From Aquipluma nitroreducens (GTDB taxonomy: Bacteria; Bacteroidota; Bacteroidia; Bacteroidales; Prolixibacteraceae), in contig NZ_AP018694.1 in assembly GCF_009689585.1 (NCBI RefSeq), positions 558,001 to 622,000 on the forward strand: DNA of 64,000 nucleotides, read 5' to 3'. Both the position numbers and the translations under genes were made by a program. Below, one piece after another: positions 27,887 through 50,464 of this stretch; position 1 is the stretch's first letter; every line of letters begins with the position of its first letter. The notes under the pieces are model-generated. The model saw only the letters and a program-made list of their open reading frames with translations. It ran no database searches and had not been told where the DNA came from.

Positions 27887-27977
27887 TTTGCACACGCGCT
27901 TCGCTTGTTAAATTTTCAGGATTATTTAACCTGAATTTTGCTCCTGAATTTAATTTTGATTTATCTTAGCCGCCGAA

Positions 27978-28134
27978 ATGGTGATGCTGATTTTAAGCAT
28001 CAAGAGGGAATCCGGTTCAATTCCGGAGCTGTACCCGCAGCTGTAAACTCTGAATATTTTTTGCAACTCATGCCACTTTTCGTAGTCAGACGGATGGGAA
28101 GGCCGCAAAAATGGAGTAAGCCAGAAGACCTGCC
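27978..28134 (+). ncRNA. Cobalamin riboswitch upstream of the DUF4465 gene
   Basis: The aptamer is recognisable by its conserved blocks in order: AAGAGGGAATCCGGTTCAAT with its paired CCGGAGCTGTACCCGCAGC, then CTGTAA, ATGCCACT (the B12-box side), TGGGAAGGCC and finally AGTAAGCCAGAAGACCTGCC. It precedes ATG 28262 by 127 nt. The frame of the downstream gene runs open through the aptamer, which is why an upstream start (27938) must be rejected. It should repress the DUF4465 gene when B12 is plentiful. Confidence 0.92.
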
Positions 28135-28152
28135 ATTCGTGCTACAATATTC

Positions 28153-32036: not shown

Positions 32037-32744
32037 TTATTTTCCCATCAGGGTTATCATTATCACTCCATTTGCGGCTTTCGAACCATAAATAGAAGCA
32101 TCAGAACCGGTAAGAATACTAATCGAACGAACCGTTTGTGGAACGATTGCCCCCAGTGATTCGACCTTTACCTCAACGCCGTCAACAAGGATCAAAGGAT
32201 CACTTGAAGCATTGACGGTGCCAATACCTCTGATTGTTATACTATTTCCAGCCACCTGAACTCCAGGAACTTCACCTTTAATCACATCAAAAATACTATG
32301 ATACGATGCAAACTTTTTATTTTGCCCATCGATATTACCTACGCTGCTTGCCAGGTCTTTCTTTTGCACCGAACCATAACCAATATTTACAACTTCATTA
32401 TCCGGGTTCTCCTGCATCACCACTTCCTTAGGAGGCATTGCCTCGCTAAGCGAGAAATTGATTACCGTTCGTCCATTAATTTCTTCTTTCATCAGGGCTC
32501 CTGATAAATTGAGAACAGATATTTGAGCGGCATCGGCGTTTACCCGAACCTTATACATGCCTTTATCGTCGGTAACAACATCAGAGCTTTTGTTGTCGAT
32601 TAACACCATTGCGCCAGATACAGGCTTGTTGTTCACATCAAGAACCTGTCCCGTGAGGTAATACTTCCTACCTGATTTGAGCGCAAAAGAGCTGACGGAT
32701 AAAGACAGAAGAAGAATTGTTAAGACCAAAATTTTACATTTCAT
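32037..32744 (-). CDS. Orphan carboxypeptidase-like plus TonB-plug domain protein, no barrel
   Basis: This 235-residue protein has a signal peptide (about 1-21), a carboxypeptidase-regulatory-like domain (YLTGQVLDVNNKPVSGAMV, 28-100) and a SusC-type plug domain (about 130-232: GEVPGVQVAGNSITIRGIG, DPLILVDGVEV). The chain ends at GVIMITLMGK, where the beta-barrel of a SusC transporter would begin. It is thus the exported N-terminal part of a TonB receptor without the channel. It may be a free-standing plug regulator or a truncated relic; intact signal and stop favour the former. It is preceded by leader copy C. Confidence 0.8.
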   Translation of the reverse strand: MKCKILVLTILLLSLSVSSFALKSGRKYYLTGQVLDVNNKPVSGAMVLIDNKSSDVVTDDKGMYKVRVNADAAQISVLNLSGALMKEEINGRTVINFSLSEAMPPKEVVMQENPDNEVVNIGYGSVQKKDLASSVGNIDGQNKKFASYHSIFDVIKGEVPGVQVAGNSITIRGIGTVNASSDPLILVDGVEVKVESLGAIVPQTVRSISILTGSDASIYGSKAANGVIMITLMGK

Positions 32745-32748
32745 CTGT

Positions 32749-32820
32749 TTAGATTTTGTTTTTTATTTGCCAGATGCAACTCCCAACAGTCATCCTCCCG
32801 TGTGAGAAAAGATTTCTCAT
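32749..32820 (-). CDS. Leader peptide uORF, copy C (23 residues)
   Basis: The peptide begins MRNLFSHGRMT and ends CIWQIKNKI, with the stop exactly 4 nt before the start of the plug-domain gene. It shares SHxRMT and IWQxKNK with copies B (33437-33523) and A (41629-41745). The longer start used in those copies (MKRA) lies at 32831 here but is out of frame by one lost base. The opening codons form a hairpin TGAGAAA-TCT-TTTCTCA. No Shine-Dalgarno is seen. Whether it is translated is inferred. Confidence 0.5.
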   Translation of the reverse strand: MRNLFSHGRMTVGSCIWQIKNKI

Positions 32821-32911
32821 GGTCGTTTCATCGCTTAAGTTATTTAAAATTAGCAATACTAAATTCAGATTTAAGGTTTGTAACTAACCTTTGCAGACAA
32901 TTCCGACCCGG

Positions 32912-32963
32912 GCGGAAAGATGCACACCAAGAACCACTGCTGCCGCAAGGGTAGCTGATGCTA
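32912..32963 (-). repeat. Cassette-spacer repeat R1
   Basis: This repeat is about 75-80% alike to R2 (33669-33726). Shared words on the plus strand are GCGGAAAGATGC, CACC, AACCACTGC, GCCG and GGGTAGCTGA. Both also have GTTAGTTA (minus strand) further on. The repeats sit behind short same-strand genes, an arrangement resembling integron cassette arrays. Confidence 0.5.
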
Positions 32964-32997
32964 GCGGCGGTAATTTTACATTTTAGTCCAATTCGTG

Positions 32998-33432
32998 TCA
33001 ATTTTTATCTTTTATTAATTTACTAAATATCTCACGCATAGTGTCTGTGTCAATTGCTTCCATGTCTACAAGTCGTAACGATTTAACCATTTTAAGAGTA
33101 GTGGTTTTATATTTCAGAAAATGCGGTGTCTCCAAATGCGACTTATAGGCTTCTCTATTTGCATAAATTTCCAGGATTCTCACCTGAGTTGGATTATCCT
33201 TCTGAAACATGGGGTAAATTGAAATGACACCTGGTTCTAATAATACTGAAGCCTTAGCTTCTTCTTTCAGAATTGCTTTATATTCCTCAAGACTTTGAAA
33301 ATCAATTTCTATTTCAGAGATGCGAATCATCAAATCTTTCATATCTGTATCTGTTTTTTTGTGTTGTGAAATACTGCAAGAATTAGCTAGTAAAACCATA
33401 AAAGTTATGAAAACTAAATTAATCAATTTCAT
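32998..33432 (-). CDS. Lipoprotein with ABM (quinol monooxygenase-like) domain
   Basis: This 144-residue protein has a lipoprotein signal with lipobox LLANSC (Cys19). The remaining chain is a ferredoxin-like ABM/YgiN fold (IRISEIEIDFQSLEEYK, then VRILEIYANREAYKSHLETPHF). ABM domains monooxygenate aromatic or quinol compounds without cofactor, but membrane-anchored exported forms have no assigned substrate that I know of. It lies between repeats R2 and R1 on the minus strand, like a cassette, and is preceded by leader copy B. Confidence 0.8.
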   Translation of the reverse strand: MKLINLVFITFMVLLANSCSISQHKKTDTDMKDLMIRISEIEIDFQSLEEYKAILKEEAKASVLLEPGVISIYPMFQKDNPTQVRILEIYANREAYKSHLETPHFLKYKTTTLKMVKSLRLVDMEAIDTDTMREIFSKLIKDKN

Positions 33433-33436
33433 CTGT

Positions 33437-33523
33437 CTATAATTTGTTTTTTAATTGCCAGATGGAACTCGCCTGAATAGTCATTCTCTTGTGTGAAAAA
33501 TAATTCCTCAGGGCTCGTTTCAT
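33437..33523 (-). CDS. Leader peptide uORF, copy B (28 residues)
   Basis: The peptide reads MKRALRNYFSHKRMT at the start and SSIWQLKNKL at the end, stopping 4 nt before the lipoprotein start. Its hairpin is TGAGGAA-TTA-TTTTTCA. The ten extra codons in copy A and one fewer in copy C are all in-frame differences, which supports coding. The sequence begins ATGAAACGAGCC, identical to copy A. Confidence 0.5.
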   Translation of the reverse strand: MKRALRNYFSHKRMTIQASSIWQLKNKL

Positions 33524-33668
33524 ATGTATATCAATTTGTAGTAATTACATCGGTGTCAATTGACTGCCTATTATTCTAACTAACGTAGGATACCATACGT
33601 AGGTGCTGATTGCGGGCGATTTGGCTATCGTAGATTTTCAATTCCTGTCAAGCCGAAAAGCAGCTTGA

Positions 33669-33726
33669 GCGGAAAGATGCCCACCGAAAACCACTGCCGC
33701 CGAATTTGGGGGTAGCTGAAGTTATG
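33669..33726 (-). repeat. Cassette-spacer repeat R2
   Basis: This is the partner of R1. It is followed (minus strand) by a CAAGC...GCTTG hairpin and by CCTACGTTAGTTAG. The 309-bp gap between the two small genes at 33433-33741 is made entirely of leader B and this repeat block. Confidence 0.5.
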
Positions 33727-33741
33727 GGCTGGGTTCATTTT

Positions 33742-34200
33742 TTAATCTTTATCAAACAATTTATTAAATGTCGGCTGAAGCAAAAATGCTCCAAGTATTA
33801 ATGTTGAAAGCACAATAAACCTCCCTACTTTTTCTGCAAAGCCTGAACTATGTTTCTTTTTGTTTTCCACCTTACATGTCAATTTCGTAATGTAAAAGTC
33901 AACATAGATAAAACATAAATAGATTGGCCAGAAAATATAGTTAAAGTACTTGTCAAAATCGAGAAACTCACCAAAAACTAACGTTGAAAAAGATAGCGTA
34001 ATTCCAAGAGAAAATATAACCAAAAGAAATCTGAATAAGTAATCAGGTTTTAACGATAATTTTCTCTCTGAAAGCTGTCCAACTTTGAAAAGCCAAATAA
34101 AAAATAGAATGGGAATGAATATCATTAAAAGTAAAAGGTTGCCAGGTGAAGTCCGAACCAACCAGTCAAATTCCCAAAAGTTGTCTCTGTTTACTTTCAT
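33742..34200 (-). CDS. Hypothetical four-helix membrane protein
   Basis: This 152-residue protein has four predicted membrane helices (about 18-40, 50-72, 82-105, 128-148) and a short basic loop (KLTCKVENKKKHSSG). I do not recognise the family. It is in the cassette-like region, minus strand, upstream of repeat R2, and has no leader copy of its own. Codon usage is more AT-rich than the neighbouring housekeeping genes, which fits acquired DNA. Confidence 0.6.
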   Translation of the reverse strand: MKVNRDNFWEFDWLVRTSPGNLLLLMIFIPILFFIWLFKVGQLSERKLSLKPDYLFRFLLVIFSLGITLSFSTLVFGEFLDFDKYFNYIFWPIYLCFIYVDFYITKLTCKVENKKKHSSGFAEKVGRFIVLSTLILGAFLLQPTFNKLFDKD

Positions 34201-34368
34201 TATTTTATTTCTCTCTCTTAGTTGTGACTGCCCAATAACCTTGCCACATAACTAGTATATACTACCAAATATAGGGTACTTTTTTCAGATATTATTGATA
34301 ATCAGTATTTTTATTTTAACTGATTTAACTACATTTCACACCGCAAAATCCCATCCCTACCCGTCCGG

Positions 34369-35358
34369 TCAGTAAACAAACTCAATGTTGTCGACCCAAA
34401 AAACCGATTCGGGAGAGCCCTGGTACAGGATTCCCTGGTAGCTCGATGTAAAATAAAAAATCAGGTGTGTAGGAACATCTTCGGGGTTTCCCCAGCCGGT
34501 TTCGACCAGTGGCACCATTTTATTTTTCGAATTCCTGACATAAACCTCTCCAGCTCCAGGAATTAAGCCCATCGTTTTAGCATCGTATTCAGGCAAACGG
34601 GTACAATCGCCATAAGTTACCGGAAATGTGGCACCATTGACCCATTGACTGACCGTTCCGGTAAAAAACCGACGGGCGCCTCCAATGCGGGTAGCAAACA
34701 CGTTCCCATTCTGATCCTCCCATCGTTTCTGAAGAATGACACAAAACTCAGCCTTGTCAGGCCCTTCAACCGGATCGATGCTATAAACGGCTTTTACCCG
34801 CTGATTTCCAACACGATATTTATAGTCGAATTTTACCGCTTTGGGCTTTTTACTAAATGCTATTCCCTGATTGACATTTTTCAGCGGATCTTTTAAACCC
34901 CGAACCGGCTCGTTCAATTCCCCAACGAATAAAGTTCCGGCAATCAAAACTTCAACTTTAAGCCCGGCAATGTTGTCCTTTCGTATCGCTGTTTCCAACC
35001 GGCAACAAGAACCATCGCCTCTTTTTTCAGGATAAACTCTCGTGTTTCCCACATCAAGAACCATTTTCGAATAAACGTTTGAGGTTGCCCAGGGCGATTT
35101 CGGATCTTTCAACTTGGTGTCGTAAAAATCAGATTGGGGACTCACCACTCCCACCCCATATAAATCGATGGTTTTACCACTCAACAAAATGGATTCCTTC
35201 ACTTTACGCGCATACCAAAAATCGAGCGACGAATAATTGAGCTGCCCTTGTTTGTCGAGGTATGCTGAAGGATCAATTTGGGAAAAAGCATCCGATGCGC
35301 AAAAACACAGAAACCAAATAACTACTGCTACTGGGCGGTATGGTAAGAATTTTTTCAT
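34369..35358 (-). CDS. PCMD domain secreted protein (putative carbohydrate metabolism)
   Basis: With the ATG at 35358 the protein has 329 residues and a signal peptide (about 1-27, ending DAFSQ). The body matches the PCMD pattern: AGTLFVGELNEP, PKAVKFDYKYRVG, and a C-terminal SSYQGILYQGSPESVFWVD box. PCMD proteins are beta-rich extracytoplasmic proteins of Bacteroidota glycan loci; no enzyme activity is established. The frame is open to 35424 but an earlier start would spoil the signal. It is divergent from fucI. Confidence 0.8.
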   Translation of the reverse strand: MKKFLPYRPVAVVIWFLCFCASDAFSQIDPSAYLDKQGQLNYSSLDFWYARKVKESILLSGKTIDLYGVGVVSPQSDFYDTKLKDPKSPWATSNVYSKMVLDVGNTRVYPEKRGDGSCCRLETAIRKDNIAGLKVEVLIAGTLFVGELNEPVRGLKDPLKNVNQGIAFSKKPKAVKFDYKYRVGNQRVKAVYSIDPVEGPDKAEFCVILQKRWEDQNGNVFATRIGGARRFFTGTVSQWVNGATFPVTYGDCTRLPEYDAKTMGLIPGAGEVYVRNSKNKMVPLVETGWGNPEDVPTHLIFYFTSSYQGILYQGSPESVFWVDNIEFVY

Positions 35359-35614
35359 CGTAATGTGACTCTGATTATCAATAGGCACAAATTTAGCGCA
35401 ATTATCAGACCTAAATCGCTGCAATTACTTTTCGCACGAAAAAGATAAAAAGAACAGCTACTGAGATCCATCAACTGCCTGAAGTATTTCATTCCAAAAA
35501 TTCCTGAAATGTGTTCCTCAACACTTCCGAATTTAAAAAAAAGCACTTACTTAGCAGCACAGTACAGGACAACACGAAATTCATATAAATTAAAACTTAA
35601 AAACTGACTCTACG

Positions 35615-37402
35615 ATGACTCAAAACAGCAGATTGATAGGCCGTTTGCCTAAAGTTGGCATCCGCCCTGTGATTGACGGAAGAGAAATGGGCGTGCGCGA
35701 ATCGCTCGAAGTGCAGACCATGAACATGGCCAAAGCTGCCGCAAAATTTATTGAAGAAAACCTGCGTTTCCCAAGTGGCGAAAAAGTGGAATGCGTAATT
35801 GCCGACACCACCATTGGCGGTGTTGCCGATGCCGCTTATTGTGCCGATAAATTCGAAAAAGAAGGCGTTGGCGTATCGCTGACTGTTACGCCATGCTGGT
35901 GTTACGGAACCGAAGTGATGGACACCCACCCTTCGATGCCCAAAGCAGTATGGGGGTTCAACGGCACCGAACGTCCGGGCGCTGTTTATTTAGCAGCCGC
36001 ATTGGCCGGATATTCGCAAAAAGGACTTCCGGCATTCGGAATTTATGGCCGCGATGTTCAGGATGCAGGCGACACCAGCATTCCTGCCGATGTTCAGGAA
36101 AAATTGTTACGCTTCACCAAAGCGGCTCTGGCTACTGCTCAAATGAAAGGAAAATCGTATTTATCAATCGGTTACTCTTCCATGGGTATTGCCGGTTCGA
36201 TGGTCGATCCCGATTTCTTTCAGGAATATCTTGGAATCAGAACTGAATTTGTTGAATCGGTTGAGCTAATTCGCCGGATTGAAAAAGGCATTTTTGATCA
36301 GGAAGAATATGCAAAGGCAATGGCATGGACTAAAGCCAACTGTAAAGAAGGAGCCGATTTAAACTCTGCCGAACTTCAGTCGGATCGCAAACGGAAAGAC
36401 TGGGAGTGGGAAGTTGTGGTGAAAATGACTTTAATTGCCCGCGACCTGATGGTTGGAAATCCAAAATTAAAGGCAATGGGTTTTGGCGAAGAATCGAAAG
36501 GCCGGAATGCCATTTTGGGAGGTTTCCAGGGACAACGCCAATGGACCGATTATTACCCGAATGCTGACTTTACTGAAGCTATCCTGAATTCGTCGTTCGA
36601 CTGGAATGGAATTCGCGAAGCCTTTGTGTTTGCAACTGAAAACGATAGCCTAAATGGAGTTTCCATGTTGTTTGGCCATTTACTGACCAACACCGCCCAG
36701 ATTTTCTCGGATGTGCGCACATTCTGGAGTCCTGATTCAGTGAAAAGGGTAACCGGTAAGGCGCTAACCGGAAAAGCAAGTGGTGGTATCATCCACCTAA
36801 TCAATTCAGGATCGACAACACTGGATGCAACTGCCCGGCAAAAAGATGCCAAAGGAAATCCGGTGATGAAAGCATTCTGGGACATTACCGCTAAAGATGT
36901 GGATGCTTGCCTCGAAAATACGCAATGGCCACCGGCAAACAAAGGTTATTTCAGAGGTGGAGGTTATTCATCGCTGTTTAAAACAGCCGGCGAAATGCCG
37001 GTTACCATGTCGCGGTTAAATCTGGTAAAAGGGATTGGTCCTGTTTTACAAATTGCTGAAGGATGGACTGTTGAACTACCCGATGAGATTCACACTGTTT
37101 TAGACAAACGTACCGATCCAACCTGGCCAACTACCTGGTTCGTTCCTCGTTTGGCTGATAACGATGCCTTCAAAGATGTGTACAGCGTAATGGCTAACTG
37201 GGGCGCTAACCATGGTGCAATTTCGTACGGACACATCGGCGCCGACCTCATTACTTTGGCTTCGATTCTTCGCATTCCGGTAAATATGCACAATGTTAGC
37301 AGCGACCAGATTTTCAGGCCAAGTGCCTGGTCGGCTTTCGGAACCGACAAAGAAGGTGCTGATTACCGTGCCTGTGCCACCTATGGCCCTTTGTATAAGT
37401 AA
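35615..37402 (+). CDS. fucI: L-fucose isomerase
   Basis: This 595-residue Mn-dependent enzyme interconverts L-fucose and L-fuculose (also D-arabinose/ribulose). Family length and motifs are complete: [13 protein letters not shown], the [10 protein letters not shown] segment with catalytic Glu near residue 342, and a C-terminal [13 protein letters not shown] with catalytic His. The GntR-type regulator follows after a terminator, and there is no adjacent fuculokinase or aldolase. It is the first gene of a minimal fucose locus. Confidence 0.96.
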
Positions 37403-37404
37403 AG

Positions 37405-37440
37405 GTATCCTTTGCCGTTCACTTCAGTGAACGGACATAA
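37405..37440 (-). repeat. Dispersed hairpin repeat, copy 2, after fucI
   Basis: The hairpin CCGTTCAC-TTCA-GTGAACGG (37415-37434) is flanked on the minus strand by ATGT on one side and CAAAGGATA on the other, exactly as around 761-780, but the stem bases differ while pairing is kept. It lies just after the fucI stop. Confidence 0.45.
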
Positions 37441-37476
37441 TGCAATATTTGCTATCTTCGCAACTGATATAAGTTG

Positions 37477-37511
37477 AAAGCCTGAATTGTACTTGCAGTT
37501 CAGGCTTTTTC
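37477..37511 (+). terminator. Terminator between fucI and its regulator
   Basis: AAAGCCTGAA pairs with TTCAGGCTTT and runs into TTTTTC, 13 bp before the regulator ATG. A TATCTTCG box (37453-37460) just upstream could start a transcript that meets this hairpin at once, so it may attenuate the regulator gene. Confidence 0.7.
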
Positions 37512-37523
37512 AAAACAATCAGG

Positions 37524-38519
37524 ATGGAACAATTTACATTTAAATTAGACGCAAGTTCTTCTCAAACCAAGATACAGCAATTGATTCATGCTGTTAGCGA
37601 AGCAATTAATCTTGGAATTTTAAAAGATGGTGATTTTTTGCCCTCAGTCAATCAGTTAAACCGTGAAAGTGGGATCTCGCGCGACACCATCTTTAAAGCC
37701 TATTCGATTTTAAAGCAACGAAGCATCATTTCCTCAACTCCAACCAAGGGATATTTTGTTTCCTCCGAGTCGTACCGGGTATTTATTCTGTTAGACGATT
37801 TCAGTGCCTTTAAGGAACAACTCTACAAATCGTTGAGGGCAAATATTCCTGATACGTATTCGATTGACCTTTTATTTCACCACTACAACCCCGAAATTTT
37901 TAATCAGCTTATTCTGAACAGCCTGGGTCGTTACAGCATGTATATTGTGATGAATATCGACAACAAAAGTCTGGAAGAAGTGGTCCGAAAAATTGATCCG
38001 AAAAAACTGTTGATCCTTGATATGGGATTTGATCCTAAAAATGAGGTTTCCAGTCTCACCCAGGATTTTAATCAGGCTGTTTACGATTGTTTAAGTTCAG
38101 GGCTGGAACTTATTCAGAAATACCAGGAATTTATACTTGTTTTCCCAAAAAATACTCCGCATCCCATTGAAACCATCGATGCATTCAACCGGTTTTGTAC
38201 CGAACACCAACTGAAACACAATGTACTGGAGAATATTGACGACCGCGAAGTTCAGCCGGGACAAGCCTATCTGGTCATCAAAGATTCAGATTTGGTTAAG
38301 ATTGTGAAAGATTGCAAGAAAAACAGTTATCAAATTGGGAAAGATGTAGGCATAATTTCTTATAATGATTCTCCGATGAAAGAAATTGTTGGCTCCGGGA
38401 TTACAGTAATCTCTACCGATTTTATTCGATTGGGTAAAGATTGTGCCAACTTCATTGTTAATAAAGAGCGAGTTAACGCTGTTATGCCCACCCGGCTAAT
38501 CATTCGCAGTTCGCTGTAA
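37524..38519 (+). CDS. GntR-family regulator with sugar-binding-protein-like C-terminus
   Basis: This 331-residue regulator has an N-terminal GntR winged helix (about 15-80: LPSVNQLNRESGISRDTIFK) and a LacI/periplasmic-binding-like effector domain (about 85-330). This architecture is used by fucose and arabinose regulators of Bacteroidota. Its place directly after fucI suggests it senses fucose or a derivative and controls fucI. The ligand is inferred from position. Confidence 0.88.
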   Translation: MEQFTFKLDASSSQTKIQQLIHAVSEAINLGILKDGDFLPSVNQLNRESGISRDTIFKAYSILKQRSIISSTPTKGYFVSSESYRVFILLDDFSAFKEQLYKSLRANIPDTYSIDLLFHHYNPEIFNQLILNSLGRYSMYIVMNIDNKSLEEVVRKIDPKKLLILDMGFDPKNEVSSLTQDFNQAVYDCLSSGLELIQKYQEFILVFPKNTPHPIETIDAFNRFCTEHQLKHNVLENIDDREVQPGQAYLVIKDSDLVKIVKDCKKNSYQIGKDVGIISYNDSPMKEIVGSGITVISTDFIRLGKDCANFIVNKERVNAVMPTRLIIRSSL

Positions 38520-38603
38520 GCGTTTTGTTGTGCAACTATCAGGCATAATATTTGTCTATACTAATAATCACAATTAAACGTTTATTCAGTAAATAAAACA
38601 GCC

Positions 38604-39194
38604 ATGAAAAAACTTACAATTCTTATCCTGTTGGCTATAGTTGCCATAACAGGGAATGCTCAGGACTTTTTTGATTTTGGCCCAAAAATCGGGATGAATA
38701 CGTCTAAGATTTCGACACATATGTCTGATTATAATGCAGAAGCAGTAAACAGTTATCAATTTGGTGCTTTTGCACGCTTTAATCTTGGACGGCTTTACCT
38801 TCAGCCTGAAGCCTATTCAAATTCAAAAAAAGGTAAAGTGATAAGCGCCAGTGATCTTGGTCTTTCAACCATCAATTCGTTTGATCTGAAAACCATTGAT
38901 GTTCCAGTTCTGCTTGGACTTAAAATCATTGATCAGAAAGCCTTGAATCTTCGTGTTTTGGCTGGGCCAACATTCTCATTCTTAACCGATAAAAGTGTTA
39001 AAGGTCAACTTACCGAAGACAATCTGAAAAATAGTTTCTTTGGATGGCAGTATGGCGTGGGTATTGATTTCCTTTTCCTGTCGCTGGATGTCAGAAAAGA
39101 GTCATTCAGTAACAATCTGTACGACACACCAAACTTTGATTTTGACACCAAAAACGGAACGTTTGTAATCAGTTTGGGAATGAAGTTATTTTAG
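38604..39194 (+). CDS. Outer-membrane beta-barrel protein (PorT-like domain)
   Basis: This 196-residue protein has a signal peptide (about 1-19, ending GNAQ) and alternating amphipathic strands: FDFGPKIGMNTSKI, FGAFARFNLGRLYLQPEAY, LLGLKIIDQKALNLRVLAGPTFS and a C-terminal VISLGMKLF ending in Phe, as outer-membrane barrels do. It belongs to the outer-membrane beta-barrel domain group. No specific function can be given. A hypothetical gene follows after 23 bp on the same strand. Confidence 0.82.
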   Translation: MKKLTILILLAIVAITGNAQDFFDFGPKIGMNTSKISTHMSDYNAEAVNSYQFGAFARFNLGRLYLQPEAYSNSKKGKVISASDLGLSTINSFDLKTIDVPVLLGLKIIDQKALNLRVLAGPTFSFLTDKSVKGQLTEDNLKNSFFGWQYGVGIDFLFLSLDVRKESFSNNLYDTPNFDFDTKNGTFVISLGMKLF

Positions 39195-39217
39195 AATCAA
39201 TAAACTATATTTACCGT

Positions 39218-39760
39218 ATGAAACGGTTTATTTTTTCCCTGATTTCCTTTTGTGCAGTACTTTTTAGTTATGCACAAAAGGAAATCCGTTTAGATAGCAT
39301 TCCACAGATTCATCAGGAAGATCGATTGAAAGAACTCAACCTGGAGAAACCTTTGCTTTTTGAGAATTCGTTTTCGATGGGAGAAATAAATTTGCCCGAT
39401 AAATCCATGTTTAACCAGCCACTTCTACCCGATTACAGTAAAAATCTGGACATTAAAAAATACCTCAATTCTTCCAAATCAACAACTGAGTCCTTTTCGA
39501 CGAACGGATTTATAGTTTCACCTTTTTATACCAATGGAGCGGTTTTTAATCAATCGACTTACCGTGTAAGCGATAAGTTTTCGTTTGGTGGAAATAGCTT
39601 TGGAGCACAATCTGTTTTCGATCGGCCTGCGCTAAATCCGGCCATCCAAAATATGAGTACCAAAGGCGCATCCATGTTTATGCAATACAAGGTTTCCAAA
39701 AACTTTAAAGTCGAAACACGAGTTAGTGTATCTACCCACAAATCGCCCTGGGAACCCTAA
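39218..39760 (+). CDS. Hypothetical exported protein
   Basis: This 180-residue protein has a signal peptide (about 1-19, ending SYAQ). The remainder is polar and Asn/Ser/Phe-rich, with no domain I recognise, ending abruptly at SPWEP. It is 23 bp after the outer-membrane barrel gene and may be co-transcribed. It may be a periplasmic or surface partner of that protein, which is speculative. Confidence 0.6.
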   Translation: MKRFIFSLISFCAVLFSYAQKEIRLDSIPQIHQEDRLKELNLEKPLLFENSFSMGEINLPDKSMFNQPLLPDYSKNLDIKKYLNSSKSTTESFSTNGFIVSPFYTNGAVFNQSTYRVSDKFSFGGNSFGAQSVFDRPALNPAIQNMSTKGASMFMQYKVSKNFKVETRVSVSTHKSPWEP

Positions 39761-39879
39761 ATTACCATTCGCTTTATTCGCAAAGTTGATCAAAATCAGA
39801 CCGATATTCCTTATTTACAACGGATTGACATGACCTGTGAATCTTTTCATTTGTCACAAAAATTAATCAACATTTCGAC

Positions 39880-39887
39880 TAAATTTG
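39880..39887 (+). promoter_or_regulatory. -7 box upstream of the Cys-cluster gene
   Basis: TAAATTTG matches TAnnTTTG, 26 bp before the ATG at 39913. The -33 element is not clear. Confidence 0.35.
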
Positions 39888-39912
39888 GTGCACTTTTACG
39901 AAAAGTAATTTT

Positions 39913-40530
39913 ATGCTCGAAAAGATCAGAAAAATTGAACGGGTTTTTAAACAATTAGACAGAGAAACCCAAAAATTTGGGAACCAATCGAACCTGAAGT
40001 GTTTGACAAATTGCAACCTGTGCTGCTTAAAGAAGGGATTGGAAGCCAATGTTCTCGAATTCCTGCCACTTGCCTATCATCTGGTCCAGAACAACTTACA
40101 CGAAGCCGCTCTTGATCTTTTGGACACCGAACCCGAACATTGCATCAACCTGGCGAAAAATCCAGCGCTTGGACAAACAGCGGGTTGTGGCGCCTATGAA
40201 CAGCGTGGACTTATTTGCCGACTTTTTGGGTTTTCTGCGGTTCGCGATAAGAACTCGAAATTAGCGGTTTACACCTGTACTCACATCAAACACGAATACC
40301 CTGAAGAATTCAAGCGAGCATCTGAACTTATTAACGCCAAAGGAATGAATATCCCGTTGGTAACTGACTTTTATTACCAGATCTACTTCATCGACACGCA
40401 AATGGCTAACGATTACAACCCGATCAATGTGAGTATCAGGAAAGCCATTGAGCATGTTGCCTATTATTATTCGAATCGGCCCATTCGAAAACCAAACAAG
40501 AAGTTGAATCCTCAAATTGGAAATAAATAA
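39913..40530 (+). CDS. YkgJ family cysteine cluster protein
   Basis: This 205-residue protein has the cluster CLTNCNLCC (Cys30, 34, 37, 38) and further Cys in GCGAYEQRGLICRLFG and VYTCTH. This is the YkgJ-type zinc or iron-sulfur binding fold, whose function is not established. It is 3 bp upstream of the peptidyl-tRNA hydrolase gene, so the two are co-translated. Confidence 0.82.
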   Translation: MLEKIRKIERVFKQLDRETQKFGNQSNLKCLTNCNLCCLKKGLEANVLEFLPLAYHLVQNNLHEAALDLLDTEPEHCINLAKNPALGQTAGCGAYEQRGLICRLFGFSAVRDKNSKLAVYTCTHIKHEYPEEFKRASELINAKGMNIPLVTDFYYQIYFIDTQMANDYNPINVSIRKAIEHVAYYYSNRPIRKPNKKLNPQIGNK

Positions 40531-40533
40531 TAA

Positions 40534-40950
40534 ATGCCGGAACTTACAGTAAATATTCCTGATCTCTCCGCTGAATTTCAATTCTTTACATCGCGCAGCA
40601 GTGGCCCTGGCGGTCAAAATGTAAACAAGGTGAATTCGAAAGTTGAACTTCGGTTCGACATTCAGAACTCCGACTTGCTGTCTGAAGATCAAAAGAATAT
40701 ACTTCTGATCAAACTGGCATCAAAAATTACTTCTGAAGGAATATTGAGCGTTGTTTCTCAGCGCGACCGCTCGCAACTCTCGAACAAGGAAGATGCCATT
40801 GAAAAGCTGTATTTACTTATTTCAAAAGCTCTGACGCCGGTTAAACCCAGAAAAAATACCAGACCAACAAAAGGCTCAATAGAAAAAAGATTGGCCACAA
40901 AGCGAATTAAGTCTGAGATAAAGCAAAATCGCCAGAAATTCGACGATTAA
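40534..40950 (+). CDS. arfB: Alternative ribosome-rescue factor / peptidyl-tRNA hydrolase (ArfB)
   Basis: This 138-residue protein carries the release-factor GGQ motif (residues 26-28, in SSGPGGQNVNKVNSKVELRF) and a basic C-terminal tail (KRLATKRIKSEIKQNRQKF) that in the family enters the mRNA channel of stalled ribosomes. The size is right for ArfB/YaeJ. It starts 3 bp after the Cys-cluster gene and is followed by a GNAT gene in the same direction. Confidence 0.9.
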   Translation: MPELTVNIPDLSAEFQFFTSRSSGPGGQNVNKVNSKVELRFDIQNSDLLSEDQKNILLIKLASKITSEGILSVVSQRDRSQLSNKEDAIEKLYLLISKALTPVKPRKNTRPTKGSIEKRLATKRIKSEIKQNRQKFDD

Positions 40951-40997
40951 TCATTCATCGGCTCATTCGTTCAATTGAGATTTCAGCATAAAACTTT

Positions 40998-41570
40998 ATG
41001 ATACAATTACATCCGGTAAAAAATTCCGATAGACTAAATTCTGATTTTAAAGAAATTTATGAGACTTCATTTCCTGACGATGAACGAAGGGAATGGACGC
41101 AGTTACTTGAAATACTGGACAATAAACAATTTATTCTGAATGAAATTTACGATCAGCAAAAATATCTGGGCTTCATTTCGATCTGGAATCTGACAGAATT
41201 CAATTTCATTGAACATTTTGCCATTCGCACTACCGAGCAAGGAAAAGGCTACGGAACTCAAACAATGGAGCATGTTCTCTCTACAAATTCAAAACCGATC
41301 GTACTTGAAATTGAAGAACCGCTTACCGAGACTGCCCGTAAACGAATGGAATTTTATGAGCGGCTAAACTTTACAGTAAACGACTTCAGTTACTTTCAGC
41401 CACCCTATTCTATCGGGAAAAGCAGCGTTAAATTGTTATTAATGAGCTATCCTGCAAAAATAAAACCTGAAGATTTTGAAAGAATCAAAGATCAAATCTA
41501 TCATTGGGTGTACGGGCATAACAATGAAGCTCTGGAATCAGAGACTATTGAGGATTTTCTGACAGACTAA
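40998..41570 (+). CDS. GNAT family acetyltransferase
   Basis: This 190-residue protein has the acetyl-CoA loop EQGKGYGTQTMEHVL near 90 and FYERLNFTVNDFSYF near 125. The C-terminal extension of about 40 residues is unusual for a minimal GNAT. Substrate unknown. It is 47 bp after arfB and probably in the same transcript. Confidence 0.82.
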   Translation: MIQLHPVKNSDRLNSDFKEIYETSFPDDERREWTQLLEILDNKQFILNEIYDQQKYLGFISIWNLTEFNFIEHFAIRTTEQGKGYGTQTMEHVLSTNSKPIVLEIEEPLTETARKRMEFYERLNFTVNDFSYFQPPYSIGKSSVKLLLMSYPAKIKPEDFERIKDQIYHWVYGHNNEALESETIEDFLTD

Positions 41571-41577
41571 AAGTTTT

Positions 41578-41585
41578 TATTTTTG
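41578..41585 (+). promoter_or_regulatory. -7 box upstream of leader copy A and mscS-like gene
   Basis: TATTTTTG matches TAnnTTTG. A start near 41592 would place the whole leader peptide (41629-41745) in the transcribed 5' region of the channel gene. Confidence 0.4.
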
Positions 41586-41628
41586 CACATAGAATAAATT
41601 TTTAAAATTCATATCTCACTTATAATCA

Positions 41629-41745
41629 ATGAAACGAGCCATGAGAGCGATACTCTCACACACGAGGATGACTAATATGGCGAATTGTAGCGAAGCGGAA
41701 ATCCCCGAAGGGAATTCCATCTGGCAATTAAAAAACAAATTATAG
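41629..41745 (+). CDS. Leader peptide uORF, copy A (38 residues)
   Basis: The peptide opens MKRAMRAILSHTRMT and ends NSIWQLKNKL, with the stop 4 nt before the channel start at 41750. Its hairpin TGAGAGC-GAT-ACTCTCA has the same 17-nt length as in copies B and C with compensating base changes. A 30-nt in-frame insertion relative to copy B contains CCCCGAAGGG. It is a candidate translated leader controlling the next gene by coupling. Confidence 0.5.
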   Translation: MKRAMRAILSHTRMTNMANCSEAEIPEGNSIWQLKNKL

Positions 41746-41749
41746 AAAG

Positions 41750-43018
41750 ATGAAATCACTTTATTTATTACTGAACGACGTATTCCGCGACCTCGACTTT
41801 CTGGAATTGTACGCCCGGCTTACGGCTGTAATGGTTACCATAGTAGCCCTTTTCGTAATCGCGATGATCGTTCATTGGATAACCAAAATTCTGACCGTAA
41901 AAATCATCCATCGATTGGTTGAGAAATCAAAGACAGATTGGGACGATTATCTGCTGAAGCGCAAAGTGTTTCAATCGATGTCGCACCTCACTTCTGCTTT
42001 GGTTTTTTATTATTCAAGTAACTTTTCTGAGATTCCTGAAGTCACCCGAATTCTAACCATATTCACGAATATCTATTTTGTGGTTATTTTCATTAAAGTG
42101 GTTTCCGGAGTATTAAAGGCCTCGAATGACATCTATCTGACTACCCCATACGCATCGACACGTTCGATCAAAGGATACATTCAATTGGTAATGATTCTGG
42201 TTTATTTCATTGCCGGAATCTTCATCATTGGCATCATCTTCGACAAATCGCCACTTTATTTGCTTGGAGGTTTAAGCGCCATTGCTGCCGTACTTTTATT
42301 GGTATTTAAAGACACAATACTTGGTCTGGTTGCCAGTATTCAGCTCTCAGCCAACAAGATGTTAAAGCCTGGCGACTGGATTGAAATGCCCAAACACAAC
42401 GCCAATGGAACCGTCATCGATATTTCATTAAACACGGTCAAGGTTCAGAACTTCGACAAAACCATATCTACCATTCCGACCTACTCGTTAGTTGCCGATT
42501 CGTTTCTAAACTGGTCGGGCATGGAAGAATCAGAAGGCAGAAGAATCAAGCGATCGATAAATATTGACATGAAGAGTGTTCAGTTTTGCGATGAAGAAAT
42601 GCTCGAACGATTCAAAAAACTTCACTTAATACAGAGCTATATTTCTGATAGACAAAAAGAAATAACCGACCACAATAAAAAACTTGGTATTGAAGACGAA
42701 TCATATCCGAATGGGCGTCGACAGACGAACCTAGGCATTTTCAGAAAATACCTGGAAGAGTATTTAAAAAACAACCCACACACTAACAACAATATGACAT
42801 TGCTGGTCAGGCATTTGCAACCGACGGAAACAGGGCTGCCAGTCGAAATATACATGTTCAGTAAAAACAAAGACTGGGTTGATTATGAAGGGATTCAAGC
42901 CGACATTTTTGATCATATTTTGGCAATTATTCCAGAGTTTAAACTCCGGGTTTTTCAGGCTCCTTCGGGCAGCGACATTAACGATTTATCTGAAAAACTT
43001 GCGAATCGGATGAACTAA
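41750..43018 (+). CDS. Mechanosensitive ion channel, MscS type
   Basis: This 422-residue protein has five N-terminal helices (the extra ones before the pore helix being typical of YbdG-like channels), the pore-lining segment GLSAIAAVLLLVFKDTILG (about 180), and the beta-domain PGDWIEMPKHNANGTVIDIS. The C-terminal cytoplasmic part is longer than MscS, as in YbdG. It probably opens under membrane tension. It is preceded by leader copy A. Confidence 0.9.
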   Translation: MKSLYLLLNDVFRDLDFLELYARLTAVMVTIVALFVIAMIVHWITKILTVKIIHRLVEKSKTDWDDYLLKRKVFQSMSHLTSALVFYYSSNFSEIPEVTRILTIFTNIYFVVIFIKVVSGVLKASNDIYLTTPYASTRSIKGYIQLVMILVYFIAGIFIIGIIFDKSPLYLLGGLSAIAAVLLLVFKDTILGLVASIQLSANKMLKPGDWIEMPKHNANGTVIDISLNTVKVQNFDKTISTIPTYSLVADSFLNWSGMEESEGRRIKRSINIDMKSVQFCDEEMLERFKKLHLIQSYISDRQKEITDHNKKLGIEDESYPNGRRQTNLGIFRKYLEEYLKNNPHTNNNMTLLVRHLQPTETGLPVEIYMFSKNKDWVDYEGIQADIFDHILAIIPEFKLRVFQAPSGSDINDLSEKLANRMN

Positions 43019-43177
43019 GCAAGAAGGAGAATAAATACCATATTCTCAAATGGAAAAAATCACTTACATTTGCCAATCTATTTTATTCGTTCATTAGTGA
43101 ATTTGATAATTTAACTTTCAGTTCATTACAATCATGATGTTTTTAAACAAGAATAATTGAAGATTATCATTTTTTTG

Positions 43178-43185
43178 TACTTTTG
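43178..43185 (+). promoter_or_regulatory. Promoter of the first AsnC gene
   Basis: TACTTTTG (-7) with ATTG at 43156-43159, spacer 18, forms a good Bacteroidota promoter. It lies 39 bp before the start codon. Confidence 0.5.
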
Positions 43186-43223
43186 AGTTTCAATTTTTAA
43201 AACGACAGTTATAACTATAGATT

Positions 43224-43703
43224 ATGAATGATCTGCATATTGAGCCACTTCCGAATATCGACGAATTGGATGAAAAAATTCTGAAATTGATTACGAAAAA
43301 TGCCCGGATTCCATTTTTAGAGGTTGCCCGCGAATGTGGAGTTTCCGGAGCCGCAATTCATCAGCGAGTACAGCGTTTACTCAATTTAGGTGTCGTTTCG
43401 GGAAGTGAATTTATAGTCAATCCTCAAAAAATGGGGTATTTTACTTGTGCGTATATGGGTATTCATCTCGAAAAAGCCAAATTTCACAAGCAAGTAGTTG
43501 CCGAACTAACAAAAATTCCTGAAGTTGTTGAATGTCATTATGTAACAGGAACTTATGCCATTTTCATTAAAGTTCAGACAAAAACAAATAAGCACCTGAA
43601 GAAATTAATTGACGAAGATTTACAGGAAATAGAAGGAATTGCCAGTACTGAAACTTTTATTTCGCTCGAAATGGAGTTTAAGCGTCAGGTTCCAATAAAG
43701 TAA
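43224..43703 (+). CDS. Lrp/AsnC family regulator, first of tandem pair
   Basis: This 159-residue regulator has an N-terminal HTH (IPFLEVARECGVSGAAIHQRVQRLLNLG) and a C-terminal RAM/AsnC effector domain (GIASTETFISLE). It resembles the next gene along its full length. Such regulators sense amino acids or small effectors. A strong hairpin terminator separates the two, so they are independently transcribed paralogues. Effector unknown. Confidence 0.92.
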   Translation: MNDLHIEPLPNIDELDEKILKLITKNARIPFLEVARECGVSGAAIHQRVQRLLNLGVVSGSEFIVNPQKMGYFTCAYMGIHLEKAKFHKQVVAELTKIPEVVECHYVTGTYAIFIKVQTKTNKHLKKLIDEDLQEIEGIASTETFISLEMEFKRQVPIK

Positions 43704-43715
43704 CAATATACTTTT

Positions 43716-43765
43716 GCTAAAAAAATAAGGGTGCCGTTGTTGAACGGCACCCTTATTTTTTTAGC
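43716..43765. terminator. Perfect 23-bp terminator between the AsnC genes
   Basis: GCTAAAAAAATAAGGGTGCC continues to a 23-bp stem around GTTG, ending in an A-rich/T-rich flank on both strands. It is one of the strongest terminators in the window and works in either direction. Confidence 0.9.
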
Positions 43766-43854
43766 AATTTTCCATTTTTCGCAACTATTGTGACTATTAT
43801 CTGACATATTGAATTAATATACCGTGTTAATTACCAAAATAATCAAATTTTAGC

Positions 43855-43862
43855 TAATTTTG
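43855..43862 (+). promoter_or_regulatory. -7 box of the second AsnC gene
   Basis: TAATTTTG matches TAnnTTTG, 33 bp before the ATG at 43895. Confidence 0.4.
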
Positions 43863-43894
43863 AAACATTAAATTTATACAATCAATATACCGTC

Positions 43895-44359
43895 ATGACG
43901 TTACGAAATCAATTGGATGATATCGATTTGAACATTCTGGACATTATCTCAAAAAATGCACGTATTCCATTTAAAGATGTAGCTGCCGAAGTTGGCGTAT
44001 CAAGAGCTGCCGTTCATCAACGAGTCAACCGAATGATCGACCTGGATGTGATAACTGGTTCTGGCTATCACATCGACCCAAAGAAAATTGATTTCAAGAC
44101 CTGCACATACATTGGCATCTTTCTCGAAAAAGGGAGTCTATATTCTACTGTCGCTGAAAAGCTTAAAATGATACCTGAAATTGTAGAGTGTCACTATACA
44201 ACTGGGCAGTATGCTGTATTTGCTAAGGTTTATGCCAAAGACAACGAGCATCTCCGTGATATTCTGAGTGATAAAATTCAAAAAATTGCTGGCGTCGCCA
44301 GTACCGAAACATTCATTTCGCTTGACGAAACATTTAAACGCGAAGTCCCAATCTTTTAG
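43895..44359 (+). CDS. Lrp/AsnC family regulator, second of tandem pair
   Basis: This 154-residue protein is paralogous to the preceding gene: same HTH (IPFKDVAAEVGVSRAAVHQRV), same IVECHYTTGQYAVFAKVYA and GVASTETFISLDE effector region. Duplicated AsnC genes may sense different amino acids. It converges on the BtuG-like gene, whose stop is only 7 bp away. Confidence 0.92.
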   Translation: MTLRNQLDDIDLNILDIISKNARIPFKDVAAEVGVSRAAVHQRVNRMIDLDVITGSGYHIDPKKIDFKTCTYIGIFLEKGSLYSTVAEKLKMIPEIVECHYTTGQYAVFAKVYAKDNEHLRDILSDKIQKIAGVASTETFISLDETFKREVPIF

Positions 44360-44365
44360 CAACTG

Positions 44366-45550
44366 TTATTCGGTTTTAAAACCAAAATTTCCGGGCGATA
44401 TTCCTACTTTAAATTCATTGATTAGTTTTCCGGATGGAGAATACCGGTGAACAAGACCGTTTTGCCTGTGATCTATGGCATCACCAACATAAATTTCAGA
44501 GCTTAACGGATCAATACCAAGGCTATAAAATCCTCCATATGAACTGGAATAATCGGAATTGATAAACGGCTGTTCGGGTATTCGCGTATCGGTGACCGAC
44601 ATTCGCCAGACATGCCTGTTTAAATAATAAATGGTATCACCGGTAGTATTTATGCAAAGCTTTAGTGGATGATCGCCAAGTGCAAAGCGGAACGACCGCT
44701 CAATCTCCCGTGTCTCAGCATCAATTTTCAACAAACCAGGCTGTTCGTATCCATACGGACTCCCATCAAAACCTCCATCGGTCAGCACCCAAATCTTATT
44801 ATACTTATCGAGAACCATACTGTTGGGCTGTTTAAACACCTCTATTGAATCAACCAATTGATCAGTGTTCGAATCAATGACCAAAATTTTATTATCATAC
44901 GACCAACAGTTGACAAAAACCAGATTCTTAAATTCGAGCATTTGTTCAGTGGGATGCTGGTTGAATTCCGATTTCGGATTATTAACCGCGATTTGGCCAG
45001 TTATCTGGAATGTTTGCGGATCGAAAACAGTAATTTTCCGTGCATAAAGATCAGTCACGTAAGCTTTATGCGAATCGACAACATGTACATATCTGGGAGA
45101 ACTTAAACCAGAGATGCTCCCTTTAAACTCAGCCGTTTGGCTATCGATCACATATATTTTGCCCGAATTATTTACCACAACAAAAGCCATGTGATTCCAA
45201 ATTGTGACTGATTGGGCCACATCACCCAATGGAGCGCTGTTTCTGGCCTGAAATACGTCATTGTAAACCCTTTTTGCCTCAGGATCATAAAACGACAACG
45301 ATGAGTTGCCATACATGAAATTACCCTCATTAACGATATAAACACCTTTATTGCCTGAAAAATCAAAAAATACAGTATCCAGCGGATTTTTAGAACAAGA
45401 AAAAAACAATTGAGTCGCTAAAACCCATAGCAATATACCCCAAGCACAATGCCCTTTGCTCCATGCCCCATGCTCTATGCCCCAAGCCTTTTGCCTTCGG
45501 TCAGCGGTCTCCGGTCTCCGGTCTTCTTCCATTTTCTTATTTCCTTTCAC
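44366..45550 (-). CDS. BtuG-like surface lipoprotein, beta-propeller (DUF5074/YncE)
   Basis: This protein of up to 394 residues is a YncE-type beta-propeller (repeating GKIYVIDSQTAEFKGSISG and KITVFDPQTFQITGQIAV segments) with a lipoprotein signal ending LFFSC. It resembles BtuG, a surface protein that binds B12 and hands it to the BtuB receptor. The GTG at 45550 overlaps the stop of the receptor gene (GTGA). The residues before the signal, including AWGIEHGAWSKGHCAWG, are encoded by a low-complexity GGGGCATGGAGCA-type DNA repeat (45438-45489), so the real start is uncertain. Third gene of the B12 operon. Confidence 0.82.
   Translation of the reverse strand: MKGNKKMEEDRRPETADRRQKAWGIEHGAWSKGHCAWGILLWVLATQLFFSCSKNPLDTVFFDFSGNKGVYIVNEGNFMYGNSSLSFYDPEAKRVYNDVFQARNSAPLGDVAQSVTIWNHMAFVVVNNSGKIYVIDSQTAEFKGSISGLSSPRYVHVVDSHKAYVTDLYARKITVFDPQTFQITGQIAVNNPKSEFNQHPTEQMLEFKNLVFVNCWSYDNKILVIDSNTDQLVDSIEVFKQPNSMVLDKYNKIWVLTDGGFDGSPYGYEQPGLLKIDAETREIERSFRFALGDHPLKLCINTTGDTIYYLNRHVWRMSVTDTRIPEQPFINSDYSSSYGGFYSLGIDPLSSEIYVGDAIDHRQNGLVHRYSPSGKLINEFKVGISPGNFGFKTE
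45438..45489 (-). repeat. Low-complexity GCTTGGGGCATAGAGCAT repeat inside the BtuG-like signal region
   Basis: Variants of GCTTGGGGCATAGAGC and GGGGCATGGAGC recur in this stretch, followed by GACCGGAGACCGGAGACC at 45506-45522. Such words recur in Bacteroidota spacers. Here they encode the start of a lipoprotein signal region. Confidence 0.6.
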
Positions 45551-50066: not shown

Positions 50067-50084
50067 AAAATCCAGATTTGTAAA

Positions 50085-50262
50085 GGCAGGTCTTCTGACT
50101 TATCCCCTTTTTAACGCCTTCCCGTTTCCCGAGTTGGAAAACAGTGGTTAACTGCTAAAAAGTTATTCAGGAATTACAGCAGCGGGAACTGTACAGGAAT
50201 TACCATTAGCCGGATTCACCTGTTTCCCTTTTAATTCTCAATGAGAAACCTATTCGGCTACA
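50085..50262 (-). ncRNA. Cobalamin riboswitch of the receptor operon
   Basis: On the minus strand the conserved blocks appear in order: AAAGGGAAACAGGTGAATCC, GTACAGTTCCCGCTGCTGTAA, AACCACTG, GGGAAGGCG, then TAAGTCAGAAGACCTGCC. It lies about 115 bp upstream of the surface-protein start. The rest of the 529-bp spacer (to 50498) holds the phoH promoter at 50465-50472. It should shut off the three-gene operon at high B12. Confidence 0.93.
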
Positions 50263-50464
50263 AAGTTATACAAAAGAACGGAAGAATAATTTCTTAGTCA
50301 ACCAGATTGCACCTCTAGTTCATAAAATGCCATACTATGAAATCAATCTTGGGAACATACCACTGATTAACAACACAATAAACAACAACACCAGTCAAAA
50401 ATTGATTGTTAACAATTCTTCTCCTGAAACCCTGAATTCGCACTGGAAATATCTTAAAAGTGTT

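Follow-up and report, generated by a model that had tools for sequence, protein, structure and literature searches.

What are the three short, related sequences that stand directly in front of three genes of Aquipluma nitroreducens, a member of the Bacteroidia (Prolixibacteraceae)? They lie in a stretch of 64,000 nt, here called the window (NCBI RefSeq assembly GCF_009689585.1, contig NZ_AP018694.1, positions 558,001 to 622,000 of the forward strand), and will be called copies A, B and C. An earlier note, made from the letters of the window, had read them as a family of leader peptides with an early RNA hairpin and had considered a common translational control device or a mobile leader. The three sequences are indeed present where it had placed them. 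The genes behind them, for an MscS channel, an ABM-domain protein and a TonB plug-domain protein, respectively, are unrelated, and in the readings chosen there A, B and C each stop 4 nt before the next ATG. The common denominator is a different one. A, B and C are copies of a structured mobile element of about 95 nt that has spread through the Bacteroidia and lacks a conserved reading frame. Insertion takes place next to a pentanucleotide, ATGAA (as a rule ATGAAA), and afterwards this sequence is found at both ends. Its usual target is the start codon of a gene: the old start is left behind, and the ATG of the right end becomes the start of the gene. As an overall explanation we give a structured mobile element at ATGAA start codons, with a putative guide and an enzyme that would act in trans, a probability of about three in four.

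The family is large. The host genome (5.71 Mb) contains the start pattern ATGAAACGAGCC 20 times, and 19 of these occurrences belong to copies of one dispersed sequence of about 95 nt; the remaining one (L009) is the start of an ordinary gene. With a sequence-only model made from 20 copies, 53 matches were found in this genome at E ≤ 1, of which 46 at E ≤ 1e-5 are treated here as the own copies; the other seven were set aside, except that one was retained as the 47th place in the comparison with a sister genome. The homology of copies B, A and C is well above anything that chance would give, with genome-wide E-values of 5e-24, 2e-21 and 2e-17, respectively, although all three were among the 20 sequences that made the model. 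Matches were found in all of the 22 other genus members searched. A structured model at E ≤ 1e-4 detected the element in 59 of the 395 class genomes sampled and in 32 of 197 genera, the own one included; since at most ten candidates were scored per genome, copy numbers from this survey are lower bounds and weak matches may have been missed. In another retrieval, 34 matches yielded 30 loci. The genome G005 yielded 86 matches at E ≤ 1e-3, more than any other. About 40 of these are 102-104 nt long and score closely, ten score exactly 64.4 bits, and two of the ten that were compared are one base apart. The near-equal scores and lengths suggest that this genome underwent a recent burst of copies. 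Phages and plasmids gave no match with copy B as query at blastn sensitivity. A single viral contig in IMG/VR, IMGVR_UViG_3300033562_001108 (L330), contains the exact right-end pattern, at position 205; the pattern lies near the end of the contig, which is possibly host DNA there.

That the element moves is documented by empty sites. The stretches orthologous to the own copies were compared in two sister genomes, G017 and G003. In G017, the DNA flanking copy A (window 35488-41634 and 41750-45000) aligns to adjoining stretches that overlap by six bases, ATGAAA. The site at the mscS gene there reads ...cttattttcaATGAAATCACTT..., as against ...cttataatcaATGAAA-element-ATGAAATCACTT... in the own genome. 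Thirty of the 47 own places could be classified in G017, 14 as empty and 16 as filled; three of the 46 own copies were omitted from one comparison query. Ten of the 14 empty sites show a single ATGAA where the own genome has two (one of the ten, at 5311734, rests on a 74% identical match that is possibly a paralogue), three have one base changed after the ATG (ATGAGA, ATGATA and ATGGA), and one is unclear. Filled and empty sites thus differ precisely between close relatives, as is typical of mobile elements, and the clean empty sites in the sister genomes mean that insertion at start codons is precise. The idea of a mobile leader is thereby borne out more strongly than could be known from the window. 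Tandem copies are joined at ATGAAA, in the own genome and, judged by their first bases, also in L258, L261 and L270.

The element is absent from the 130 nt upstream of the gene in 18 MscS loci inspected, of 25 found, and the structured model matched none of these 25 loci, which come from named records, Sunxiuqinia and Mangrovibacterium among them. The own MscS protein is 97% identical to a homologue in a Prolixibacteraceae metagenome-assembled genome. At kdsB, 18 loci of relatives were parsed, one of which is partly masked; none shows the element in the stretch of up to 130 nt upstream. A conversion of codon 2 by the element, from ATGGA to ATGAA, was considered for this gene and could not be polarised: ATGAAC or ATGAAT is what most of the genus members inspected carry there. 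At two own places, 1793148 and 5113645, the orthologous sites of G017 carry elements of a different hairpin or subfamily, which suggests exchange between copies or repeated insertion.

The preference for start codons is strong. Of the own copies, 34 of 46 end at an ATG that opens an open reading frame (ORF) of at least 60 amino acids; by comparison, the window has 36 intergenic ATGAA sites that are not gene starts, and three of them open such an ORF, one probably belonging to a gene truncated at the window's end. By a gene list of chosen ORFs of at least 100 amino acids, the window contains 14 ATGAA sites at gene starts, 13 in intergenic DNA up to 150 nt upstream of a gene in the same direction (three of these being left ends of the element itself) and 26 elsewhere between genes. 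An even distribution over starts and intergenic ATGAA sites would place 28% of the copies at starts (14/50); 74% are seen there (P ~1e-10). The other 12 own copies, sorted by hand, comprise nine in a sense leader or in tandem and three elsewhere. The same holds outside the own genome: 17 of 20 copies from the genus and 23 of 30 from other genera and families lie at an ORF start, as do 17 of 19 and 33 of 40 in two further sets from other families, which include the same site in related genomes (L232/L236 and L247/L268). Together, this makes 90 of 109 copies. One genus copy (L214), which by eye stands in front of murG, entered the count as a miss after parsing at a wrong ATG. Among the seven misses in the set of 40, three seem to run into another copy and one, by eye, stands before the 38-residue ribosomal protein L36. 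The downstream genes, named by eye from their translations, include the housekeeping genes kdsB, ackA, rpmJ, pheT and purA. Where a gene start is the target, the new start is preceded by the element's own A-rich stretch.

The peptide that had been seen in A, B and C dissolves when the family is considered. The spacing of the two ATGs was taken for 33 copies whose left ATGAAA is intact; modulo 3 it is 0, 1 or 2 in 9, 17 and 7 cases, respectively. A and B fall into the commonest class, C does not. Frame-shifted copies (16) are therefore as common as in-frame ones (17), the very finding that the earlier note had named as fatal to a coding reading. The frame opened by the left ATG stops 4 nt before the right ATG in five of 35 copies, and likewise in two tandem copies outside this count; the fixed stop position thus holds for the three copies as read there and fails for the family. 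In 29 of the 35 the frame ends elsewhere, from 85 nt before to 101 nt after the reference point, and in the copy at 4227511 no stop was met within the stretch read. Many of these frames stop after 2 to 16 codons. The insertions and deletions had been described as in frame; copy C, however, has GACC instead of the GAGCC of A and B and so lacks 1 nt in a block common to all three. With its left block one base shorter, C needs a start codon other than that of A and B to yield the peptide: read from the homologous ATGAAA it stops after four codons, and the leader proposed for it (from 32820) begins at a later ATG. The apparent peptide follows from the anatomy of the element. ATG AAA represents the old start together with the target repeat; IWQLKNK is what one frame of the A-rich right end encodes, and the TAG is part of this fixed end.

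What is conserved instead is base pairing. Two helices were first spotted by eye and then counted on the alignment of the sequence-only model. In the right helix, CATNNG pairs with CNNATG, the ATG of which is the present start codon. Of 99 copies (the gap-free ones among 103 rows), 81 form both variable pairs, whereas 2000 shuffles gave 32.9 on average and never more than 46; eight combinations match fully: CT/AG, AT/AT, GT/AC, AC/GT, CC/GG, TC/GA, TT/AA and CA/TG. In the left helix, AAAC-GA-GCC pairs with GGC-GA-GTT; the tandem G-A mismatches are kept in 76/86 and 75/84 cells, and a C-G pair has jointly become T-A in six rows. Over all 12 named pairs, 94.1% of the cells are paired, and 75 cells are doubly changed versus 19.6 in shuffles (none of 500 as high); control alignments slid by one to three columns gave 23 to 33% pairing. 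In a corresponding check on other families, 38 of 40 copies could be parsed. Copy C is instructive: besides GACC in the left block it has GGGAG instead of GGCGAG in the right one, so that each side of its left helix is shorter by one base. The same pair is lost on both sides, and the shortening makes structural sense. It recurs in L042, L045 and L046 and in L231, L245, L265 and L266 from other families. As RNA, the copies are predicted to fold more stably than dinucleotide-shuffled sequences (mean z -2.2, 70 copies). In 12 predicted folds inspected, the left AUG is unpaired in all and the right AUG is paired in 11.

The earlier claim of a selected RNA structure therefore stands for two helices that had not been named. 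For the early hairpin that had been named, support is weaker, though the hairpin does exceed chance: its mean energy is -3.97 kcal/mol, while halves re-dealt among the copies gave -3.16 on average and -3.83 in the best of 200 trials, and the 24 parsable copies had been selected by a rule that itself demanded TGAG at the start. Palindromic inserts are nested in the element at two places, the junction between the helices and the apical region. Several kinds of such repeats occur in L010, L019, L022, L023, L052, L055, copy A and L018, and orthologous copies may carry other inserts or none.

The block GTTNCATNNG, situated 3' of the left helix and 5' of the A-rich loop, is complementary to both ends of the element: its GTTNCAT matches the left ATGAAAC, usually with an A-C mismatch (in 72 of 84 rows), and its CATNNG matches CNNATG on the right. 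Because both pairings need the same CAT, the block is probably a guide, which would pair alternately with the left target copy, ATGAAAC, or the right CNNATG. A guide that takes up the two target copies in turn, as in single-strand transposition or intron guide pairing, would be expected to look like this; a switch between two start codons would do so equally. Mobilisation would occur in trans, through an enzyme recognising the folded strand and cutting it behind ATGAA, much as the single-strand transposases of the IS200/IS605 type do, of which it need not be one. The excess of copies at start codons may then reflect tolerance of such insertions, as the element rebuilds the start and the initiation region, together with preferential access to, or retention at, transcribed 5' ends. 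The predicted right helix, as RNA, may damp translation of the downstream gene.

Several observations weigh against this explanation. No mobilising enzyme was identified among the Y1 transposases and RVT_1 proteins searched. Copies do not flank the Y1 genes examined (six own ones and 12 regions in other genomes). Co-orientation with replication, in 25 of 46 own copies, amounts to no strand bias of the kind that lagging-strand transposition leaves, the origin being placed solely from the GC skew of partial stretches. RNAalifold, applied to the first 20 copies, returned three pairs at -0.17 kcal/mol, almost no consensus structure. The covariation statistics ignore the relatedness of the copies, and those in the sets with 17 of 19 and 33 of 40 hits at ORF starts had been found by the structured model. 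By the 60-residue rule, 12 of 46 own and 19 of 109 other copies are not at an ORF start. A weak 140-nt match of 22.8 bits in G005 lies inside a coding gene, at an internal ATGAA, which means that start codons are no absolute requirement. Finally, the guide is read from anatomy, and selection for an RNA regulator would give the same covariation.

The nearest relatives would be the IS200/IS605 elements and the repetitive extragenic palindromic (REP) sequences. PATEs are small derivatives of IS200/IS605. A non-autonomous derivative of this kind, moved by a Y1 (HUH) transposase of the host, is a tenable explanation, if one clearly less likely than not. According to PMC6006769, IS200/IS605 elements have folded ends, internal guides that pair with the cleavage sites, a fixed short insertion sequence and no terminal inverted repeats; the same source ascribes to the Bacteroidetes Y1 subclass 2.6 "atypical secondary structures" and copies elsewhere in the genome. 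Our element resembles them in inserting beside a fixed pentanucleotide (ATGAA in ten of the 14 empty G017 sites), in lacking terminal inverted repeats and in its fold with internal complementarity to both ends. Like the REP/BIME sequences of the TnpA-REP (RAYT) systems, it is short, structured, dispersed, non-autonomous and intergenic. Of the element-bearing genomes tested, 16 of 17 have Y1 genes, compared with 7 of 14 genomes in which no copy was detected; the difference is confounded by ancestry. On the other side, G255 contains 11 element matches and no Y1 match, although its copies are not near-identical and too diverged to prove recent activity. The guide of IS200/IS605 and REP elements is described in PMC6006769 as lying just 5' of the hairpin foot; here the putative guide lies 3' of the left helix, and one block between the ends would serve both instead of one at each end. 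No Y1-bearing relative with the same ends was found around the six own Y1 genes and in 12 of the many Y1 regions of other genomes, the strong preference for start codons is peculiar to our element, with insertion at start codons going unreported for REP/RAYT systems in what was available of that source, and the missing orientation bias is at odds with a PATE. Nor is there the REPtron arrangement, i.e., copies flanking a tnpA-REP gene, in the Y1 regions examined: of 17 sources of such regions, two have copies about 2.5 kb or more away, one a weak in-gene match and one a match at chance level.

The Y1 genes themselves are a mixed lot. The own genome has two 95% identical IS200-like copies of about 570 bp (L114 at 281739, with a stop codon inside the Y1 domain, and L115 at 380218), a third, more distant one at 388475 and, by reading, three RAYT-like Y1 genes, two of them beside REP-like repeats. 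As a parent of the element these own Y1/RAYT loci were rejected, since none of the six has the element nearby and other repeats are found there instead. The weak G005 match occupies L290 4572-4711 (contig C73), within the 3' end of the only Y1 transposase gene of that genome.

A translational control device is unlikely, although several findings would suit it. It supposes that the right helix closes the downstream start and is opened by a signal or by upstream translation; copies would persist through useful regulation of their genes, and mobility would be the way in which the device spread. The right helix does contain the start codon and is maintained by compensatory changes, the predicted folds inspected pair the right AUG (11 of 12) and leave the left one free, and hand sorting assigns 43 of 46 own copies to starts, sense leaders or tandem arrays. 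The upstream frame and the position of its stop are, however, not conserved, and the downstream genes, housekeeping ones among them, have no evident function in common. Orthologous sites are often empty, as in 14 of the 30 classified in G017 and at the 18 parsed kdsB loci, and an older copy shared by the own genome (at 1687721) and G017 has lost the pairing in both.

Spread via RNA and a reverse transcriptase, as in group II introns, would explain sense insertion at transcribed 5' ends, for which the same 43 of 46 copies speak. Group I and group II introns have an internal guide that pairs with both junctions of the insert, and the guide-like pairing of our element recalls it. The element is far smaller than the known self-splicing introns, though, and the enzyme is missing: RVT_1 gave no match in the own genome, which is one contig, 99.7% complete and carries copies absent from the sister, nor in G291, G400, G070, G359, G211 and G255 among 17 element-bearing genomes tested. 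Other reverse transcriptase families were not searched and an enzyme may have been lost; still, we regard this route as quite improbable.

Weakest of all is the leader peptide, an attenuator or upstream ORF with a conserved amino-acid sequence, which is hardly tenable and was rejected as a general property: in A, B and four other own copies the left-ATG peptide ends with IWQLKNKL or IWQIRSKL and stops 4 nt before the start, and the frame class of A and B is the commonest, yet the frame and stop statistics of the family contradict it and the compensatory changes track base pairing.

Other known small elements are less close. Miniature inverted-repeat transposable elements (MITEs) of DDE transposons are likewise short, non-autonomous and numerous and have short direct repeats at their ends. 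Our element has ATGAA(A) as its direct repeat and no terminal inverted repeats: 2, 5 and 7 of 20 terminal positions match in A, B and C, respectively, and the region of copy A showed no inverted repeats. A DDE-type MITE is therefore unlikely. Rickettsia palindromic elements and the byp elements of yeast mitochondria are small, structured mobile inserts inside reading frames. Genes tolerate them, as they tolerate our element, which, in contrast, sits mostly at the start codon and replaces the leader. The broad kind, small non-autonomous mobile elements, is already known, and the structured mobile element described here is classed with it, even though the defining features of REP, IS200/IS605, MITE and RVT_1-dependent elements that were looked for were in part not found. 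We found no description of a start-codon element in the literature searched, the coverage of which was partial. Rfam contains no such family: at the gathering threshold, it recognised just two cobalamin riboswitches in the window, at 27962-28151 (+) and 50068-50268 (-); the region of copy B gave one match, with E 6.7.

The features of the three copies and their neighbouring genes are compiled in Table 1. Copies B and C lie close to a second dispersed repeat (GCGGAAAGATGC..CACTGCCGC), which is found at window 33581-33755 and 32900-33000 and flanks two small genes. This region is largely without match in G017 and G003 and looks like a cassette-type island. Further matches to the repeat lie at 788241 and 5096141 of the own genome and in other members of the genus.

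Table 1. Copies A, B and C of the element, their parts and the genes behind them (window positions)
Feature	Position	Strand	Remarks
Copy A, both ATGAAA repeats included	41629-41755	+	Inserted at the mscS start codon; empty site in G017 and G003
Left ATGAAA of copy A	41629-41634	+	Corresponds to the lone ATGAAA in the sister's empty site
30-nt palindromic repeat nested in copy A	41685-41714	+	Also in the copy at 2467670, not in the latter's G017 orthologue
Guide (putative) CATCTG, copy A	41718-41723	+	5/6 pairs with AAGATG at 41747-41752; covariation in the family
Right guide partner, copy A	41747-41752	+	Ends in the present mscS start codon ATG (41750-41752)
mscS-type channel gene, start codon as target	41750-43018	+	PF00924; orthologues start identically
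Copy B, both ATGAAA repeats included	33427-33523	-	
Guide (putative) CATCTG, copy B	33459-33464	-	Pairs with CAGATG 33430-33435, in which the ABM gene has its start codon
ABM-domain gene, 3' of copy B	32998-33432	-	Domain match
Copy C, both ATGAAA repeats included	32739-32831	-	
Guide (putative) CATCTG, copy C	32771-32776	-	Pairs with CAGATG 32742-32747, in which the plug-domain gene has its start codon
TonB plug-domain gene, 3' of copy C	32037-32744	-	Domain match

It is tempting to go further and to think of a class-wide element that homes to start sites by one CAU guide. The guide would recognise the target ATGAA and, once the element is inserted, pair with the old or the new start codon, and would thus serve target choice, end recognition and a translational switch alike; the enzyme would belong neither to the known Y1 transposases nor to the RVT_1 proteins. 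This we consider doubtful. If, however, the guide reading is true, the element would possess a short base-paired addressing system for ATGAA.

The structured mobile element occupies a part of the gene that is among the most constrained, and yet the gene is not broken: the start codon is duplicated and a new initiation region is supplied. Bacteroidia are a major group that rarely uses Shine-Dalgarno signals. In the own genome, the 5' leaders of dozens of genes, housekeeping genes included, have been rewritten in this way, which bears on the evolution of leaders, the annotation of start codons and gene expression.

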